From a virus: a stretch of 39,011 nucleotides of DNA. Below the pieces are notes generated by a model. That model saw nothing but the letters and a program-made list of their open reading frames with translations. It was not told the DNA's origin and ran no database searches. The stretch covers positions 1 through 39,011 of IMG/VR virus record IMGVR_UViG_3300009620_000012; one strand, given 5' to 3'. A program made the position numbers and the translations under genes. Below, piece after piece: positions 9,778 through 33,002 of this stretch (positions within the stretch are counted from its first letter, which is position 1; every line of letters begins with the position of its first letter).

Positions 9778-10265
9778 TCTATATCTACCACGGTCCCATC
9801 CTCTTGACCGACTGTGCTCGGCCCTCCTGCATCTTCTTCAGTGTCCTCTTCAAGAATTCCCTCAGAGAAATCACACTTCGATAAAAGCTGAACAACTTTT
9901 TCTTCTCCTAATACATTAAGACATCCCACAATGGCTGTCTCCAGTGTTTCCTTATCCATCAATCCAGTTGAATCGGAGTTAGCTCCCCGAACTCTGGACA
10001 ATAATTCCAAAGCTTTGATTGCACTATTCGTATGCCCACTCGATTTGGCAAAGGCATACTGACCTTCAAGCTCCTCGATAACATTAACATTCGTTTCAAG
10101 CTGCTGCTCCAGTTCGTGTATCCGGTCGATTACTTCTTGCATTTGTAGCAAGCGGTAACCCTGATTGGCAGAGGAGCGGGAAGAATAGCCAGCAGCCTTT
10201 GCTGCCTCGGTTGCATTGCGGTGCAACACATAAGCTTGGGAAAACTTTTCCTGTTTATTATTCAT
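9774..10265 (-). CDS. Terminase small subunit-like protein (163 aa)
   Basis: The N-terminus matches the Terminase_2 type: KQEKFSQAYVLHRNATEAAK, then AGYSSRSSANQGYRLLQ, then an EVIDRI helix. Together these form the helix-turn-helix that recognises the packaging site. The centre holds the usual long helical oligomerisation part. The C-terminus is very acidic (about residues 130-163), where the family usually contacts the large subunit. It lies on the strand opposite to, and more than 20 kb from, the large subunit gene (33129), in an operon with pyrB and the holin. It overlaps the pyrB stop by eight bases. Confidence 0.75.
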   Translation of the reverse strand: MNNKQEKFSQAYVLHRNATEAAKAAGYSSRSSANQGYRLLQMQEVIDRIHELEQQLETNVNVIEELEGQYAFAKSSGHTNSAIKALELLSRVRGANSDSTGLMDKETLETAIVGCLNVLGEEKVVQLLSKCDFSEGILEEDTEEDAGGPSTVGQEDGTVVDIE

Positions 10266-11142
10266 TACTTAATATCTCATTCAGGATAGCCATACGCATA
10301 TACAATCCATTTTCAATTTGTTTAAAGTAGTAGGCTCTGGGGTCTGAGTCAAACCAAGTGGGTATTTCTTTATTACGAGGGAAGGGGTGCATCACAATCA
10401 TATCCTTCTTGAACTCATTTACATTATCTTTGACTAACTTATACTTACCTACAGAGCCTCTCTCTTCCTGAACTCTGGTCATATACAGAACGTCTGTCTG
10501 TTGGCAAATAAACTTTGTCAGAACTCCCGAGGAGAATATATTTATTCCTTGTCCGTACCGGAATGGAGCGACAAGATTATCAGGACTTACCAACTGAATT
10601 TTCACATTGAATAATTTCAGAACTTCCAATAGACTGTGAATTGTTCTGCCATTCTTAAGATCCCCCATCAATGTTAGTGTAAGATTATCTATTTTTCCAA
10701 ATCTTTGCCAGATTGTATATAGATCTAGCAGAGTTTGTGTGGGATGTTCTCCCACTCCATCTCCTGCATTGATGATGGGAACAGAAGACACATGAGAGGC
10801 TCTCCGGGAAGCCCCTACTTCGGGATGTCGCAGGGCAATCACATCCACATAGCTGGAGAGAGTTCTGATGGTATCTTCCAGAGTCTCTCCCTTTGCCACA
10901 CTGGAATACTGTACCCCATTAATAGGTAAGACATCGTAGCCTAATCTTTTCATGGCCGCAAAGAAACTTGAGCTTGTTCTGGTGGACGGCTCATAGAAAA
11001 GATTAGCTAGTAGCTTGGTAGGCTTGCCCCTATCAAAGAATAACTGGCGATTAGGCCCATTATTCTGATAGTGTTGAGCAAGATTAAACAAGGCAGTAAG
11101 GCTGTCCTTGTCATACTCTTCTATAGATAGGAGATGTCTCAT
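10258..11142 (-). CDS. pyrB: Aspartate carbamoyltransferase catalytic chain (294 aa)
   Basis: Catalyses carbamoyl phosphate + aspartate to N-carbamoyl-aspartate, the committed step of pyrimidine synthesis. All hallmark motifs are present: FYEPSTRTSSSF (49-60, S53-T54-R55-T56), K84 in the mobile loop SSVAKGE, R105-H106-P107-E108, HPTQTLLDLYT (133-143), GDLKNGRT with R166, RVQEER (R223, Q225) and HPFPR (252-256, Phe replacing the usual Leu). The length is close to that of bacterial PyrB, and no pyrI-like regulatory chain is nearby. It sits between the holin and terminase small subunit genes, within one overlapping operon. The intact active site argues for a working enzyme. Whether the acceptor is still aspartate cannot be proved from sequence. 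Confidence 0.93.
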   Translation of the reverse strand: MRHLLSIEEYDKDSLTALFNLAQHYQNNGPNRQLFFDRGKPTKLLANLFYEPSTRTSSSFFAAMKRLGYDVLPINGVQYSSVAKGETLEDTIRTLSSYVDVIALRHPEVGASRRASHVSSVPIINAGDGVGEHPTQTLLDLYTIWQRFGKIDNLTLTLMGDLKNGRTIHSLLEVLKLFNVKIQLVSPDNLVAPFRYGQGINIFSSGVLTKFICQQTDVLYMTRVQEERGSVGKYKLVKDNVNEFKKDMIVMHPFPRNKEIPTWFDSDPRAYYFKQIENGLYMRMAILNEILSNE

Positions 11143-19147: not shown

Positions 19148-19603
19148 TTAAAAGGGTGCAGCTTCCTCTTGCACATAGCCTCCTTCTACTGGTTCAAAGT
19201 CTTGGTCATCTCTGGTGTACTCAATGAAGTCCACCACCTGCACTGCTGCCAAGTCAGCAGATACTCCTGATTTACCAGCATAGTTCCACTCGTAGGGAAC
19301 GGCCTTAACATTTACCGTGCTACCATTAGCAATCAGCTTGCCATTCCAGATATTATTCTGAGAGTCTTTTATAAAGGGAGCGGCACGTTGGCTACCATCA
19401 GGACGCAAGACTTTACGCTTAATGGTAACAAAGTCACCCCGGTCGTCATCCTTGTTACTGATGGGAAGGCCAGCCCCTTCGATAACAGCTCGATTGTTAT
19501 CATTAACCTCAACTTGAATAGACCAAACCGGATCGAACTTGGTGTTCGGCTCGGTGATCGAGGCATAGTGGCACTTGCCAGAAATGTAAATCGGATCGTT
19601 CAT
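19148..19603 (-). CDS. Single-stranded DNA-binding protein (151 aa)
   Basis: The fold signature resembles T7 gp2.5/DUF2815-type ssDNA-binding proteins. It starts PIYISGKCHYASITEPNT, continues with beta-rich segments (DPVWSIQVEV; TIKRKVLRPDGSQRAAP) and ends in a strongly acidic Glu/Asp tail terminating in a hydrophobic AAPF. Such tails recruit replication partners. Its position between the nuclease and PolA supports the call. GGAG sits six to seven bases before ATG 19603, so the longer frame upstream is discarded. Its own promoter lies at 19738-19767 and gives a structured leader of about 130 bases. Confidence 0.75.
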   Translation of the reverse strand: MNDPIYISGKCHYASITEPNTKFDPVWSIQVEVNDNNRAVIEGAGLPISNKDDDRGDFVTIKRKVLRPDGSQRAAPFIKDSQNNIWNGKLIANGSTVNVKAVPYEWNYAGKSGVSADLAAVQVVDFIEYTRDDQDFEPVEGGYVQEEAAPF

Positions 19604-19662: not shown

Positions 19663-19712
19663 CTAATCTACGCTCTGTAGTACTACTTCGTACTACTACA
19701 GAGCTTGATTAG
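19663..19712. repeat. Long inverted repeat, family copy 1 (loop class B)
   Basis: The outer arms are CTAATC/GATTAG and the main stem is GCTCTGTAGTA/TACTACAGAGC (11 bp). The 11-base centre is CTACTTCGTAC. Its sequence is identical to the copy at 32478-32527, about 12.8 kb away. It is the only copy outside the early region and lies in the leader of the ssb gene. Confidence 0.95.
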
Positions 19713-19737: not shown

Positions 19738-19767
19738 ATTGTACCACACCTTCAGGGTGTATGTCAA
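19738..19767 (-). promoter_or_regulatory. Sigma-70 promoter for ssb
   Basis: On the minus strand TTGACA (19767-19762) and TACAAT (19743-19738) are separated by 18 bases. The predicted start is near 19731. The -35 box overlaps the end of the endonuclease VII gene, and the transcript would begin just before the long inverted repeat. Confidence 0.7.
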
Positions 19768-29058: not shown

Positions 29059-29258
29059 TAGCTAATTCCTCTCACTCTCCAGTAGCGTTTGATTACCTCG
29101 TCCCAAGGAACCTCTCCCCGGTACATCTCAGTCCACCATTCGGGACCAATAGTATCCACAAGCCATTCCTCAATAGCAAGAGCACCAACGGCGATCTCCA
29201 TATCGGAGCCTTGTTCAACAATAATGTTCGGCAGTCCTCTTTTATTTAGTTCAGTCAT
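29058..29258 (-). CDS. Hypothetical early protein (66 aa)
   Basis: Sequence includes GLPNIIVEQGSDMEIAVGAL, then IGPEWWTEMYRGEVPWDEVI. Trp-rich second half, no membrane segment. Coupled at both ends with its neighbours (8-base overlap upstream, TAATG downstream). The function is unknown. Confidence 0.65.
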   Translation of the reverse strand: MTELNKRGLPNIIVEQGSDMEIAVGALAIEEWLVDTIGPEWWTEMYRGEVPWDEVIKRYWRVRGIS

Positions 29259-29421
29259 CTTTGACCTCCATCAGCATAGTGGTTAGACAATCAGGCTCAT
29301 CGATCTCAAACTTGACAAGCCGTCCGCCTCGGCGAACTATCTCAGCTTCAAAGAGCCGACCTTCATCCATCAGATCCTGAAAGGACACATCGGCTTCGAT
29401 CACACGGTAGGTTGAGGTCAT
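29251..29421 (-). CDS. Hypothetical early protein behind a repeat hairpin (56 aa)
   Basis: Start chosen at ATG 29421 because GGAG lies six bases upstream. The alternative ATG 29433 touches the hairpin at 29435-29486 and has no ribosome site of its own. Protein begins MTSTYRVIEADVSFQDLMDE and ends in an acidic segment. The function is unknown. Confidence 0.65.
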   Translation of the reverse strand: MTSTYRVIEADVSFQDLMDEGRLFEAEIVRRGGRLVKFEIDEPDCLTTMLMEVKDD

Positions 29422-29434
29422 CACATTCTCCATT

Positions 29435-29486
29435 CTAATCTTCGCCCTCTAGTATCGAAAGATACTCTACTAGAGGGCTAGATTAG
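29435..29486. repeat. Long inverted repeat, family copy 2 (loop class A, GAAA)
   Basis: Outer arms CTAATCT/AGATTAG and stem GCCCTCTAGTA/TACTAGAGGGC. The inner alternative stem is GTATC-GAAA-GATAC. It lies 6 bases after the TAA of the membrane-protein gene and just before the next Shine-Dalgarno. The C-G pair at stem position 3 replaces the T-A of other copies, with both arms changed. Confidence 0.95.
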
Positions 29487-29492
29487 GGTAAG

Positions 29493-29657
29493 TTAGTTCC
29501 GAATTGTGTTGATTACACCGTAAGCAAAACCACCCAGAGACATAGTATAAGTTCCCAGAGCGATTAGTCGGGACTCGTAGATCAGCCCAAGTCCTTCAAG
29601 ACTTACGAACAAGCCGATCATACCGACTATAACATAGAGCAGATACATGATTCGCAT
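29493..29657 (-). CDS. Small two-TM membrane protein (54 aa)
   Basis: AGGAAAAG precedes ATG 29657. Nearly all of the protein is hydrophobic: MYLLYVIVGMIGLFVSLEGL is one membrane helix and LIALGTYTMSLGGFAYGVI the second, with short polar ends. Small early membrane proteins in phages may alter host permeability or block superinfection. Neither can be shown here. Confidence 0.7.
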   Translation of the reverse strand: MRIMYLLYVIVGMIGLFVSLEGLGLIYESRLIALGTYTMSLGGFAYGVINTIRN

Positions 29658-29667
29658 GATTCTTTTC

Positions 29668-29952
29668 CTACATATCCTGATAAACAACTTGGTCGTACCT
29701 GTTTTGAGCAGGTAAGTCAACCACATTCTTACTACGCAATCTTGTATTACCAATCAAGCGCATGTAATCCCGGATTGTTCCGCCATTAGCGGCAGACAAT
29801 CTCCGAGCATGTAGGGCAACAGATTTATCAAAGGCAGTGCGGCTTCCAAAAGGAACAAGTTTATCTCGCTTTCGCTCGATCTTCTCATCCATCCAGAGAT
29901 TATAGCCAGCCTCTCGCTTGAGGTTATCTTCATATATAATAACAGTTTGCAT
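29668..29952 (-). CDS. Hypothetical basic early protein (94 aa)
   Basis: Basic and helical (LWMDEKIERKRDKLVPFGSR, then SVALHARRLSAANGG), with a 'NGGTIRDYMRLIG' segment. The overlapping alternative frame on the same strand gives a poorer protein and is not used. A GAAAGAAG sequence precedes ATG 29952. The function is unknown. Confidence 0.65.
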   Translation of the reverse strand: MQTVIIYEDNLKREAGYNLWMDEKIERKRDKLVPFGSRTAFDKSVALHARRLSAANGGTIRDYMRLIGNTRLRSKNVVDLPAQNRYDQVVYQDM

Positions 29953-30021
29953 AGCACTTCTTTCGGTTAGGTTAAGTTAAACGAGTAGTTTAAGGTCATG
30001 CTCAGGACCAAATTGCACTTA

Positions 30022-30072
30022 CTAATTCGTCTCCCTAGTATCGCAAGATACTCTACTAGGGAGACTAATTAG
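30022..30072. repeat. Long inverted repeat, family copy 3 (loop class A, GCAA)
   Basis: Arms CTAATT/AATTAG, stem GTCTCCCTAGTA/TACTAGGGAGAC (12 bp), inner stem GTATC-GCAA-GATAC. It begins exactly one base after the TAA of the gene ending at 30074. Several stem positions differ from other copies, with matching changes on both sides. Confidence 0.95.
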
Positions 30073-30073
30073 G

Positions 30074-30754
30074 TTAGCTCGATGCTACTCGACTGGCCTT
30101 CTTCTTTGCTGTACCGTGAGCTGGGAAACCCACGATAACCTTCCGGTTACGTTTCTCGCAAAGCATACAGTCAGCACAAGATATATCATCTTTGTATGTA
30201 GCAGGACAGACAACAATCTTCCTGCCTTTGGCAGTCCGGGTGTTAGTTGTCTGGTCGATTGGCAAGACCGTTGTAACAGGAAAAACATCAAGATCATATA
30301 GCTCATCCGCATGATCAAGATTATTAGCCGAGAGGTTTACCGTGAAACCTATGTTGTTCATCATGTAAACGGTAACCCTGTTGTCCCAATTATTCAGGAC
30401 ATCGTAGTGTGTATAGGTAAACCCACGTTTATTTTCATTAGCTCTGGCTAACTCTATACATTTATCAGTGTCAAGGTTTACCTTGTCACCGGGAAGATCC
30501 CCGGCTTGGTTGTGTCTCCACTTTTGCAAGGGAGGTAGGTCTTTGACCTTACTAATAAAGGTAGACCAATCATCACCTCTCTCGCCTTGGGACACTTTGT
30601 CCCAGTGGAGTTTCAGGGGACCACTCTCTGCGTAGCAGCCGCCCTCATTAGCATTATTAAAAGGGCAGACTGTGGGACAAGTCGCCCCGGCAGAGGTGGT
30701 CACTGGAATGGGACCAACTTTCGCATTCTTACTTTTGACAGTCATGTGATACAT
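30074..30754 (-). CDS. Cys-containing phage protein, unknown function (226 aa)
   Basis: The N-terminus is striking: KSKNAKVGPIPVTTSAGATC, then CPTVCPFNNANEGGCYAESG, giving C26, C30 and C40. A second cluster, DISCADCMLC (two CxxC spacings in a row), lies near residue 195. A proline-rich centre includes QAGDLPGD and GFTYTHYDVLNNW. Proteins with this start (Lys-x-Asn-Ala-Lys-x-Gly-Pro-Ile-Pro) recur in many unrelated phages, but I know of no proven function. The cysteines could bind zinc or an Fe-S cluster. The gene is followed at once by a repeat hairpin. Confidence 0.7.
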   Translation of the reverse strand: MYHMTVKSKNAKVGPIPVTTSAGATCPTVCPFNNANEGGCYAESGPLKLHWDKVSQGERGDDWSTFISKVKDLPPLQKWRHNQAGDLPGDKVNLDTDKCIELARANENKRGFTYTHYDVLNNWDNRVTVYMMNNIGFTVNLSANNLDHADELYDLDVFPVTTVLPIDQTTNTRTAKGRKIVVCPATYKDDISCADCMLCEKRNRKVIVGFPAHGTAKKKASRVASS

Positions 30755-30756
30755 AG

Positions 30757-30963
30757 TTAAACCTCATATGTCTGTTCAAGTTTCAAGAAACTTAGGTCAA
30801 GTTCCCTTATCTTAGTAAGGTAAAGGTCGTTCATGTGTTCTCCCGCTACGTCCTCCACTTGGAGGATGTCAGTGTCCCCATAAACCGGATAATAATAAAC
30901 TGGATCATCCAATTTTATAGGCGGCAAAGCTACGAACAAAACATAGTAAGGAGTTGATTCCAT
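30757..30963 (-). CDS. Hypothetical early protein (68 aa)
   Basis: AGGGG lies seven bases before ATG 30963 (MESTPYYVLFVALPPIKLDD), so the longer upstream frame is rejected. Beta-rich N-terminus with several Tyr (VYYYPVYGDTD), helical C-terminus. The function is unknown. Confidence 0.65.
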   Translation of the reverse strand: MESTPYYVLFVALPPIKLDDPVYYYPVYGDTDILQVEDVAGEHMNDLYLTKIRELDLSFLKLEQTYEV

Positions 30964-30973
30964 TAGATTTCCC

Positions 30974-31150
30974 CTAGAGCTGTTTGGCTGGTTCTTCAAA
31001 GATATAGCCAAGCCGTTTGGCATACATAATTGTGTCGGCAGTCAAGGTCTTTGTACCTGCTATCTTAGCAAGTAACCTTGAGGTTTCACAAGCAGGATAG
31101 ACAACATCGTTGCCATACTGATCTTTGATTTCAATCAAACACCTAGTCAT
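30974..31150 (-). CDS. Hypothetical early protein (58 aa)
   Basis: GGAGG lies five bases before ATG 31150 (MTRCLIEIKDQYGNDVVYPA), inside the 3' end of the upstream gene. Reads CETSRLLAKIAGTKTLTADT, then a short C-terminal helix. No family is recognised. Confidence 0.65.
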   Translation of the reverse strand: MTRCLIEIKDQYGNDVVYPACETSRLLAKIAGTKTLTADTIMYAKRLGYIFEEPAKQL

Positions 31151-31313
31151 TCGGACCTCCATCTCTTATTTGTTTTCTCAATTTATTCATTACTAAGGAA
31201 AACTGGGGGTGATTTTGATTGCGAACGGGAAGATTACGAAGCAACCATCTAACATTAGATGGATCACTTATATCCCGTCGTAATTCTGGAACATTCATGT
31301 CGAGCGGTATCAT
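31143..31313 (-). CDS. Hypothetical basic early protein (56 aa)
   Basis: GGAGG lies eight bases before ATG 31313, four bases after a repeat hairpin ends. The protein reads MIPLDMNVPELRRDISDPSN, then VRWLLRNLPVRNQNHPQFSL, and is basic. Overlaps the next start by eight bases, a normal coupling in this run. No family is recognised. Confidence 0.65.
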   Translation of the reverse strand: MIPLDMNVPELRRDISDPSNVRWLLRNLPVRNQNHPQFSLVMNKLRKQIRDGGPND

Positions 31314-31329
31314 TAGATAATCCTCCTTT

Positions 31330-31380
31330 CCAATTACGCTCTCTAGTATCGTAAGATACTCTACTAGAGAGCTTAATTGG
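31330..31380. repeat. Long inverted repeat, family copy 4 (loop class A, GTAA)
   Basis: Arms CCAATTA/TAATTGG, stem GCTCTCTAGTA/TACTAGAGAGC, inner stem GTATC-GTAA-GATAC, one C/T mismatch between arms and stem. It begins one base after the TAA of the gene at 31382 and ends four bases before the next GGAGG. Confidence 0.95.
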
Positions 31381-31381
31381 G

Positions 31382-31588
31382 TTAGAACCTTTCGTGGTCT
31401 TGATCAGAGTAAGGACCAGTTGGCACAAGCGGTGACTTTCTAGCTATAACAATGGTGTCATTATCATAGTCTATGTCACATCTTGATCTAGGATCAAAGA
31501 ACATATGAATAAAATCAGGTTTTCCCCAGACCATAACAGCATGGAGATATTCCTGATCCTTTCTAAATCCTATGAAGTGAATAGCCAT
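31382..31588 (-). CDS. Hypothetical early protein (68 aa)
   Basis: Reads MAIHFIGFRKDQEYLHAVMV, then WGKPDFIHMFFDPRSRCDID. A small alpha/beta protein with a 'D-x-D-N-D-T' strand. Starts just two bases before the end of the upstream zinc protein. It is followed by a repeat hairpin one base after its TAA. The function is unknown. Confidence 0.65.
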   Translation of the reverse strand: MAIHFIGFRKDQEYLHAVMVWGKPDFIHMFFDPRSRCDIDYDNDTIVIARKSPLVPTGPYSDQDHERF

Positions 31589-31589
31589 T

Positions 31590-31847
31590 CTACCTACTCC
31601 ATTTACAGTTCAGGGGAAACTTACCTTGTTTCCAGTCTTTGTGCAGTTTTACATTGCGATCCCAATTCTTATTATTAAAACTACCGACTGGTTCCCCTTG
31701 AAAGGGAGCCTTAGGGCAGCCACAACTTTCTTGGAATATATCAAACCTTTTACCACAGCCTGTGCAAGTAAATACAGCAGGTTGGGCCGGAGGGAACTGT
31801 GCTTTACAAAAGCTGGGACATCCCCAAACACATTTTGTCTTTGACAT
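31590..31847 (-). CDS. Cysteine-rich zinc-binding protein (85 aa)
   Basis: Contains many Cys: CVWGCPSFC, then CTGCGKRF and SCGCPKAPF, enough for two zinc sites, of which CTGCG is a classic zinc-ribbon knuckle. The second half is basic with Trp (NWDRNVKLHKDWKQGKFP). It probably binds nucleic acid or a host protein. The exact role is unknown. Confidence 0.7.
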   Translation of the reverse strand: MSKTKCVWGCPSFCKAQFPPAQPAVFTCTGCGKRFDIFQESCGCPKAPFQGEPVGSFNNKNWDRNVKLHKDWKQGKFPLNCKWSR

Positions 31848-31891
31848 AGCCTGTCCTCCTTTTAATTTAAAGTGTTAACTTTGTATATTCT

Positions 31892-31919
31892 GGAGAACAG
31901 GACTTCTTAGTCCTGCTCC
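31892..31919. repeat. Intercistronic hairpin, unrelated to the 50-bp family
   Basis: CAGGACT-TCTT-AGTCCTG is a perfect 7-bp dyad, extended outside by GGAG/CTCC with an AA bulge. It fills part of the 88-base gap between the genes at 31936 and 31847, again just after a stop codon. No T-run follows on the minus strand. Confidence 0.75.
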
Positions 31920-31935
31920 CCAGACCATACCAAGT

Positions 31936-32199
31936 CTAGCTAGCTGCTACCATCGCAGCAAAGTAAGGGCTGTCCGTGGGAGGCTTCTCAGCCCAAGCAA
32001 CAGCACTTTCTTGCTCCTCCTTCGGAGCATTCTCCACGTTCCGAATAACCTTGGTGGAAACTCCCTTGGGAGTTACATACTTAATTCGGACCGGAAGTCC
32101 AGCATCCACCACCTTAGCAAAGATCTCTTTGCCACGCTCAAGTTCGACCCAATTCGAGCCGTCCCACACTTCAAAAGTCTTTGTCGTTTTCTTTGCCAT
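31936..32199 (-). CDS. Hypothetical early protein (87 aa)
   Basis: GGAGG lies five bases before ATG 32199 (MAKKTTKTFEVWDGSNWVEL). An earlier in-frame ATG overlaps the ribosome site and is rejected. Beta-rich, with RIKYVTPKGVSTKVIRNVEN in the middle and an Ala-rich end. No family is recognised. Confidence 0.7.
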   Translation of the reverse strand: MAKKTTKTFEVWDGSNWVELERGKEIFAKVVDAGLPVRIKYVTPKGVSTKVIRNVENAPKEEQESAVAWAEKPPTDSPYFAAMVAAS

Positions 32200-32236
32200 G
32201 ATATCCTCCATTGGCGTTCGGCCAAAATCGGCCAGT

Positions 32237-32287
32237 CTAATTACGCTCTCTAGTATCGCAAGATACTCTACTAGAGAGCTTAATTAG
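32237..32287. repeat. Long inverted repeat, family copy 5 (loop class A, GCAA)
   Basis: Arms CTAATTA/TAATTAG, stem GCTCTCTAGTA/TACTAGAGAGC, inner stem GTATC-GCAA-GATAC. It begins one base after the TAA of the gene at 32289 and lies just upstream of the GGAGG of the next gene. Confidence 0.95.
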
Positions 32288-32288
32288 C

Positions 32289-32456
32289 TTAGTTAAGAAG
32301 CTCAGACTCAACTTCGTGAAGATCGTCGAAGCTGCTTACCCAGTTCCCTTCACTATCGTGAAGGTCTATACCGAAACCACCGGGAGCTACGCTAACTTGG
32401 AACTTGTCGTTGAACTTAAGGCTAAGTTCAAAGTTGGTCTTCATTAGATCGGTCAT
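32289..32456 (-). CDS. Small early protein between two hairpins (55 aa)
   Basis: GGAGG lies six bases before ATG 32456. The protein reads MTDLMKTNFELSLKFNDKFQ, then VSVAPGGFGIDLHDSEGNWV, and ends acidic. It is bounded by repeat copies 5 and 6, so gene and hairpin form one compact cassette. No family is recognised. Confidence 0.75.
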   Translation of the reverse strand: MTDLMKTNFELSLKFNDKFQVSVAPGGFGIDLHDSEGNWVSSFDDLHEVESELLN

Positions 32457-32477
32457 TGAAACCTCCAGTTTGAGTTA

Positions 32478-32527
32478 CTAATCTACGCTCTGTAGTACTA
32501 CTTCGTACTACTACAGAGCTTGATTAG
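32478..32527. repeat. Long inverted repeat, family copy 6 (loop class B)
   Basis: Arms CTAATC/GATTAG, stem GCTCTGTAGTA/TACTACAGAGC, centre CTACTTCGTAC. It is identical to the copy at 19663-19712. It begins one base after the TAA at 32529-32531 and lies 10 bases before the GGAGG of the next gene. Confidence 0.95.
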
Positions 32528-32528
32528 G

Positions 32529-32699
32529 TTAGGTCAAAAGACTATAGGTGGCTAGTATAACTAGCCCAGTGGAAAGCATCCAATCGGTCCAAAGCATCTC
32601 GGTTTTCCTATCTCCAATTAAGCTCTCTAGTATCGTAAGATACTCTACTAGAGAGCTTAATTGGGTTTCATCATCCCGGTTGTCAAGTCTCTTCGCCAT
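32529..32699 (-). CDS. Possible small membrane protein read through a repeat hairpin (56 aa)
   Basis: The frame runs ATG 32699 (MAKRLDNRDDETQLSSLVEY) through repeat copy 7, which encodes an amphipathic stretch, into a hydrophobic C-terminus (MLSTGLVILATYSLLT), and stops at the TAA before copy 6. AGGA lies upstream, but a perfect 10-bp hairpin (32705-32727) stands between it and the start codon. An alternative is a 22-aa peptide starting at ATG 32597. Both share the hydrophobic end. Two palindromes inside the frame keep confidence low. Confidence 0.4.
   Translation of the reverse strand: MAKRLDNRDDETQLSSLVEYLTILESLIGDRKTEMLWTDWMLSTGLVILATYSLLT
32550..32566. repeat. Perfect 7-bp hairpin GGCTAGT-ATA-ACTAGCC
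   Basis: A 17-base perfect dyad with a 3-base loop inside the small open frame at 32529-32699. It adds to the unusual palindrome density of this stretch. Confidence 0.75.
32614..32664. repeat. Long inverted repeat, family copy 7 (loop class A, GTAA), fully paired
   Basis: The only copy with an uninterrupted 19-bp stem (CCAATTAAGCTCTCTAGTA and its complement). The 13-base centre can form GTATC-GTAA-GATAC. Unlike copies 3-6 it is not preceded by TAA (the base triplet reads AAA), and an open reading frame passes through it. Confidence 0.95.
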
Positions 32700-32704
32700 T
32701 CATC

Positions 32705-32727
32705 ATTTGCATAGTAGCTATGCAAAT
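32705..32727. repeat. Perfect 10-bp hairpin ATTTGCATAG-TAG-CTATGCAAAT
   Basis: A 23-base dyad with a 3-base loop. On the minus strand it is preceded directly by GCAGGA and followed five bases later by ATG 32699, so it may place a ribosome site next to the start codon when folded. Confidence 0.8.
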
Positions 32728-32772
32728 CCTGCATAGGGCGAAAAGAGCTTTGTTCTCAAGACTTTGGCAGCT

Positions 32773-32798
32773 TTCCGTAGCTTCGAAGCAGTACGGAA
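32773..32798. repeat. Compound dyad TTCCGTA...TACGGAA around GCTTCGAAGC
   Basis: 7-bp outer arms (32773-32779 and 32792-32798) enclose a 10-base perfect palindrome (32780-32789). It could be an operator or a stem-loop in an early leader. Confidence 0.75.
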
Positions 32799-32838
32799 TA
32801 CCAACAAATTCCCCTCAACTGGGATGAAATTTGTATTA

Positions 32839-32888
32839 CTAATCTACGCCCTGTAGTACTACTTCGTACTACTACAGGGCTTGATTAG
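32839..32888. repeat. Long inverted repeat, family copy 8 (loop class B)
   Basis: Arms CTAATC/GATTAG, stem GCCCTGTAGTA/TACTACAGGGC, centre CTACTTCGTAC. It differs from copies 1 and 6 by one compensated stem pair (C-G for T-A). It lies in the control region with no gene directly upstream. Confidence 0.95.
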
Positions 32889-33002
32889 GATTCCTGAGAT
32901 TTTATTTTCTCTGGCCTAGCGCATTATGCATGGGGGTGGGGAAAAAACCGGGCGCACGCATATATATATAAAACCACACTCTCATATATTTAGCAAAATT
33001 TA

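Follow-up and report, generated by a model that had tools for sequence, protein, structure and literature searches.

The stretch of DNA analysed here, hereafter the window, comprises positions 1 to 39,011 of the IMG/VR record IMGVR_UViG_3300009620_000012 and belongs to an uncultured marine phage. The late genes, including those for terL and the portal protein, are located on the plus strand, and the early genes are located on the minus strand and are read leftward from approximately 33 kb. A first-pass annotation had reported eight inverted repeats of 50-52 nucleotides (nt) with a common architecture, and all eight were recovered at the positions given, whereas 200 first-order shuffles of the window yielded 0.015 such hairpins on average and one at most. 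The inner stems comprise 11-12 base pairs (bp) closed by AGTA/TACT, with the exception of the copy at position 32614, which has an unbroken stem of 19 bp. The centres measure 11 or 13 nt, and outer arms of 6-7 bp lie beyond a small mismatch. Five copies contain the type A centre TCGNAAGATACTC and three the type B centre CTACTTCGTAC, and the orientation is identical in all eight. Since the genes flanking the hairpins are located on the minus strand, the relevant RNA is the reverse complement. In this messenger sense the type A tip reads GA-GUAUCUUNC-GA, and the element consists of the outer stem, the mismatch, the inner stem ending in AGUA, the tip GA - GUA UCU UNC - GA and the returning strand that begins with UACU. 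The three type B tips are devoid of the tandem GA.

In the direction of early transcription, the copy closest to terL is a type B hairpin at 32839..32888 (minus strand, as are all following features; inner stem 32848-32880; messenger tip GUA-GUACGAAGUAG-UAC), which scored 30.4 bits with the covariance model R1 built from type A and occupies the same place in the related contig L004 (4023-4055). A sigma70-like promoter can be read from the sequence at 32658..32686, with the -35 box TTGACA at 32681-32686, a 17-nt spacer and a weak -10-like CAATTA (32658-32663) within the outer arm of the next hairpin. The latter is the GA-capped type A copy with the 19-bp stem (32614..32664; 73.4 bits), directly past the promoter-like TTGACA. 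A possible open reading frame (ORF) for a membrane peptide of 22 amino acids (MLWTDWMLSTGLVILATYSLLT; 32529..32597) would be flanked by this hairpin and the type B copy at 32478..32527; the longer listed ORF 32529-32699 would cross the 32614 hairpin. The 32478 copy is located 21 nt ahead of the Shine-Dalgarno (SD) sequence and ATG of gene 32289-32456. The subsequent copies are of type A: 32237..32287, directly 3' of a stop codon and 37 nt ahead of the SD and ATG of gene 31936-32199; 31330..31380 (76.8 bits), directly 3' of a stop codon and 16 nt ahead of the SD and ATG of gene 31143-31313; 30022..30072, directly 3' of the stop codon of the DUF7227 gene (30074-30754); and 29435..29486, 6 nt past a stop codon and 13 nt ahead of the SD and ATG of gene 29251-29421. 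The type B copy at 19663..19712 lies between an endonuclease-VII-like gene (stop at 19764) and an ssb-like gene (ATG at 19603), both names being predictions from the sequence. A stop codon is thus found less than 10 nt before five of the eight hairpins, in four cases directly before, and 51 nt before the 19663 copy, so that the earlier statement that the repeats separate single genes is valid for most copies and not for all eight.

The hairpins are RNA structures under selection in the early messenger, oriented and placed between a stop codon and an SD sequence, and selection acts on the structure, leaving the stem sequence free. When 65 distinct type A copies were gathered by the 13-nt tip alone, with the arms unconstrained, stem positions 1-8 counted from the tip were 100% Watson-Crick, and all four pair types occurred at positions 6-8. 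In an alignment of 29 diverse copies (A3), 15 of 21 pairs were changed on both sides, and the covariation score was 0.602, compared with 0.182 after shuffling (0/500) and at most 0.19 with the partner slid. At pairs flanked by Watson-Crick pairs the messenger sense contained 19 G.U and no A.C wobbles; these counts, like those of covariation, do not represent independent events, as the hairpin copies share descent. The tip U-A pair is replaced by U.G in 5 of the 29 copies. Moreover, of 70 copies 69 gave the more stable fold on the messenger strand, which gained 3.3 kcal/mol on average over its complement. A slipped AGU/ACU pairing, in which the type A ACU fits either of two AGU, was considered as a switch and rejected, being absent from variants that end in CCU/AGG or UGU/ACA.

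The constant part of the family is the tip and not the stem. Hairpins picked from the same contigs by their arms only revealed the further tips GA-AGUUCUUAC-GA, GA-ACAUAGU-GA, GA-GCAAAGC-GA and GA-UUACUUAA-GA. A sample independent of the hairpin was obtained by choosing 79 loci (761 kb) according to the neighbouring protein DUF7227. It contained 63 hairpins of family size, compared with 1.0 expected, and 40 of them displayed GA..GA (or AA..GA) tips in gene sense and none in antisense, spread over 23 of the loci. A GA-type tip was detected in 43 of 116 hairpins of this sample, compared with 1 of 72 in 579 kb of control DNA. All loci together provided 72 distinct tips, of which 58 form at least two terminal pairs inside GA/GA, compared with 24 (maximum 37) for letter-shuffled tips, and U or C precedes the 3' GA in 71. 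We interpret these tips as an internal loop of tandem G.A pairs that bears a mini-stem of 2-3 bp with a loop of 3-5 nt, in which the G.A pairs are probably sheared.

With respect to the neighbouring genes, orientation was set by SD/start and stop tests, as ORF lengths near terL gave an ambiguous estimate. An SD with a start codon is located no more than 70 nt downstream of 79% of 141 distinct GA-capped hairpins (25% at random positions and 9% on the opposite strand). Just ahead of 85%, compared with 34% at random, an ORF of at least 40 codons comes to its end. Replication with 89 copies of the CRP/HMO class yielded 85% and 96%, respectively. Within the set of 80 distinct type A copies, an SD and start were found within 60 nt in 53 of 79 cases and on the other side in 3 of 80. 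None of the records contains hairpins of mixed orientation, and in whole contigs the copies are limited to the early operon and absent from the late one. Of the 141 hairpins of the relatives, only 1 is followed by at least five T within 25 nt, in agreement with the former remark that no T-run is present and that the repeats are not ordinary terminators.

Additionally, a promoter-like arrangement (TTGAC, a spacer of 15-19 nt and a -10-like sequence) was detected directly upstream of 27 of the 141 hairpins, compared with 1.3% of random positions. The typical form is TTGACA-N17-TATATA/TAATTA with the -10 box inside the outer arm, and transcription should therefore start at the base of the inner stem. 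The spacer of many early promoters includes a conserved ATGATGA/AATGACGA word (L035, L044, L042 and window 32664-32680). A separate 10-bp hairpin, ATTTGCATAG-TAG-CTATGCAAAT, is located just upstream of the early promoter at window 32705-32727 and is identical in L004 (3879-3901). Between the divergent operons the G/C-rich sequence GGGGGTGGGGAAAAAACCGGGCGCACGC is followed by a TA repeat (window 32930-32960), which may serve in packaging or replication. Unrelated hairpins of the CAGGACT..AGTCCTG and CAGGG..CCCTG types occupy other early gaps in which no GA hairpin is present (window 31891-31924; L004 at approximately 1920-1970 and 2690-2740), so that hairpins as such may characterise these gaps in general.

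The presence of hairpins at orthologous gaps was analyzed in contigs that were partly chosen for having a hairpin somewhere and not for one before the respective genes: ahead of the gene 32289 homologue, 11 of 12 relatives, with protein identities down to 29%, have a family hairpin in the gap, and ahead of that of gene 31936 a GA hairpin is present in 13 of 18, whereas the gaps before polA (0/23) and DUF932 (0/21) never hold one. The 19663 hairpin is kept only in homologues of at least 90% identity. Relatives with the same gene order and no dyad at these places, which according to the first-pass annotation would speak against a conserved role, were accordingly not the rule for the genes at the head of the operon. 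The 32478 gap contains type B in the window and type A in L004, and the two sequences differ by gene-plus-hairpin units, as an additional gene of 79 amino acids with its hairpin is present in L004 and gene 31143 with its hairpin only in the window. The earlier suggestion of recombination boundaries gains weak support from these cassette differences; the persistence of the hairpins at orthologous gaps, down to approximately 30% protein identity, indicates that they are functional parts and not mere seams. In the contigs L008 and L009, the terL sequence is 90% identical to that of the window and the early genes are unrelated and without these hairpins, with a sharp mosaic boundary beside terL. 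Since the early genes are unrelated, the absence of hairpins from these contigs does not bear on conservation. Elsewhere in the window, the minus-strand ORF 10258-11142 resembles by eye an aspartate carbamoyltransferase (pyrB), which would be a metabolic gene of a kind unusual in phages.

The type A core was detected in 62 IMG/VR stretches and type B in 8, and a second stem class, AACACTT-GA..GA-AAGTGTT, in at least 120. The marine phage sequences that contain the family number well over a hundred; it is widespread and apparently undescribed. Among cultured phages, Puniceispirillum phage HMO-2011 contains two GA-capped hairpins in the same setting (4-42 and approximately 1208), Roseobacter phage CRP-345 one at approximately 831, between the gp02 stop (806) and the gp03 start (888), and Roseobacter phage CRP-1 one at approximately 1003; none was found in CRP-2 and T7, and the pelagiphages examined provided no convincing copy. 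The HMO-2011 group has been ranked with the most abundant ones known from the ocean (PMC6918029). An exact scan of 84,980 cellular genomes (GTDB) for the type A core gave no hit, and the CRP-type pattern produced 45 scattered cellular matches, approximately the chance level. Window 28-33.2 kb and six relatives contained nothing near the gathering score of any Rfam family. A blastn comparison of the hairpin region of the window with 50,697 phage records returned nothing useful, because the stems are free in sequence. Likewise, the covariance model R1 missed the CRP-345 copy, which was found by the stem-plus-GA rule. Neither hairpins nor inverted repeats are mentioned in the CRP-1 paper, and in the open-licence literature no paper naming both HMO-2011 and hairpin was found. 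Just 3' of the GA hairpin, HMO-2011 (L376, approximately 1255-1275) and the CRP/HMO-class loci L211-L290 carry a second element, a GTCCRAYRTYGGAC-type palindrome in which the changes compensate each other and which directly precedes the SD (ACGGAGTT); base pairing between the SD and the AACCGT that flanks the element is conceivable, which points to a fold that sequesters the SD. The hairpins constitute a structured RNA family that is absent from Rfam and present in phages of marine Alphaproteobacteria, including HMO-2011. They provide a handle on the organisation of early expression in these phages, and the invariant tip on free stems represents a clean case of structure-only selection as well as a search key for similar elements.

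The interpretation that we favour, with about even confidence and by analogy, is that of intercistronic hairpins for mRNA processing or stability that would resemble the RNase III sites of T7 in action and be GA-capped in design. The hairpins would be cis-acting RNA elements of the early polycistronic messenger. In each, a mismatch of one nucleotide, often A.G, separates the AU-rich outer stem from the inner stem, which is strictly Watson-Crick, free in sequence and topped by the constant tip, and the sites are located between stop codon and next SD as well as at the 5' end of promoter-initiated transcripts. A host ribonuclease, with RNase III as the natural candidate, may cut at or beside them, and/or the folded hairpin may shield the new 5' or 3' end, which would provide each early gene with an mRNA of its own that is stable and translatable. 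In this scheme the cutting or shielding, the enzyme and the role of the GA tip are inferred. The messenger-sense wobbles, the fixed orientation, the order of stop, hairpin and SD and the missing U-run lend support to the earlier suggestion of RNA processing or 3'-stability elements. Several observations weigh against our interpretation. RNase III does not require a conserved tip, so the invariant GA/GA is not explained by cleavage alone. G.U pairs are absent from the first 8 stem pairs, which is stricter than in a typical RNA hairpin. In the copies at promoters, such as those of L044, L031, L071 and window 32614, the 5' outer arm coincides with the -10 box and would not be transcribed from that promoter, yet the arms stay complementary.

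A tip that stays constant also points to specific recognition. The main rival explanation, somewhat unlikely in our estimation, considers the GA tip as the site of a specific RNA-binding protein of phage or host that would switch translation next to the ribosome binding site (RBS) or, with the RNA loaded at the transcript start and again between genes, modify RNA polymerase in a nut/put-like antitermination. The conserved tip on freely varying stems, the abundance of GA tips in the unselected DUF7227 sample as opposed to control DNA, and the position at the very start of promoter-initiated transcripts and ahead of the RBS all agree with such a site. The unrelated hairpins in other gaps of the same operon are less easily reconciled with it, and a role of lower specificity would agree better with the type B hairpin, devoid of tandem GA, in a gap where a relative has type A. 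Recognition by a dedicated protein that coordinates the whole early operon would define a new class of riboregulatory element, common to several lineages of marine phages with the abundant HMO-2011 group among them; this is a tentative proposal that we regard as less likely than not. If the tip were unrecognised, the hairpin could be a pure 5'/3' stabiliser of mRNA that acts as a roadblock without cleavage. The very stable folds and the predicted transcript start at the inner-stem base in promoter copies are compatible with this role, which appears very improbable in that the invariant GA tip would be unexplained unless it serves folding.

Explanations at the DNA level, i.e. an operator or a cruciform to which a regulator or resolvase binds, or a boundary at which phages exchange single genes, could draw on the perfect inner stems, the cassette differences between the window and L004 and the promoter overlap of some copies. 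We consider them improbable: G.U is tolerated and A.C is not, solely in the messenger sense, the tandem G.A of the sense strand corresponds to T.C on the opposite strand, the orientation to the genes is fixed, the hairpins are kept at orthologous gaps, and the stems exhibit no operator-like sequence conservation. The strand asymmetry in particular disfavours the protein-binding DNA cruciforms that were proposed before. Strong hairpins at gene ends recall intrinsic terminators or attenuators of the early operon, a function with little probability, given a U-run in a single case and the copies before many early genes and even immediately behind the promoter, where termination would shut the operon down. 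Least probable of all is a selfish mobile hairpin repeat (REP/MITE-like) that spread through phage genomes: several copies per genome and many genomes would fit, but not the single orientation per record, the stop-to-SD placement, the late operon free of copies, the stems that differ between copies yet remain paired, and the absence of the type A core from the cellular genomes.

A comparison with known systems indicated resemblances to several of them. K-turn and K-loop RNAs contain tandem sheared G.A pairs and a three-nucleotide bulge on one strand. The GA-capped tips share with them a 5' GA facing a 3' YGA at the end of a stem and have no consistent bulge of this kind; in 58 of the 72 tips the interior starts to pair right at the GA pairs or with a single bulged base, and the mini-stem stacks on the GA. 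The stoperators of mycobacteriophage L5 are short fixed sequences of double-stranded DNA that are bound by the repressor; they are likewise oriented, repeated intergenic sites of the early region, one of them at a promoter, whereas the GA-capped family is a variable paired structure. REP/MITE elements insert in either orientation and untied to transcription, which contrasts with one orientation per record, and the U-run that follows the hairpin of an intrinsic terminator is present in 1/141 only. The closest parallel to the presumed action is provided by T7, where R1.1 is a 60-nt hairpin between the early genes 1.0 and 1.1 that is cut by RNase III (PMC6121014). The T7 hairpins are also approximately 50-60 nt long, lie on the transcribed strand in the gaps of the early genes, immediately upstream of the following RBS, have one orientation and no U-run, and one is found between the promoter and the first gene. 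They share an asymmetric internal loop (4/5 nt in R1.1; PMC6121014) and an AAGGUC-type stem and have variable tips, whereas in the GA-capped family the stem letters vary, the tandem GA/GA tip is constant, and neither the asymmetric loop nor the conserved R-site sequence is present. In T7, in turn, no hairpin with an 8-bp perfect stem and a centre of 8-16 nt was found, and hence none with this GA tip. The placement resembles that of the ESAS of cluster K mycobacteriophages, which are repeated imperfect inverted repeats of unknown function just upstream of small-gene starts, nearly all in one orientation and conserved with particular gene families (PMC3203893). ESAS are 17-bp repeats with a conserved consensus tied to the start-associated sequence, whereas the GA-capped stems lack this consensus and vary freely with compensation, conserving the pairing and the tip. 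With a presumably T7-like action and an ESAS-like placement, but without the defining sequence features of either, the family is best described as intercistronic phage mRNA hairpins of a new, GA-capped design.

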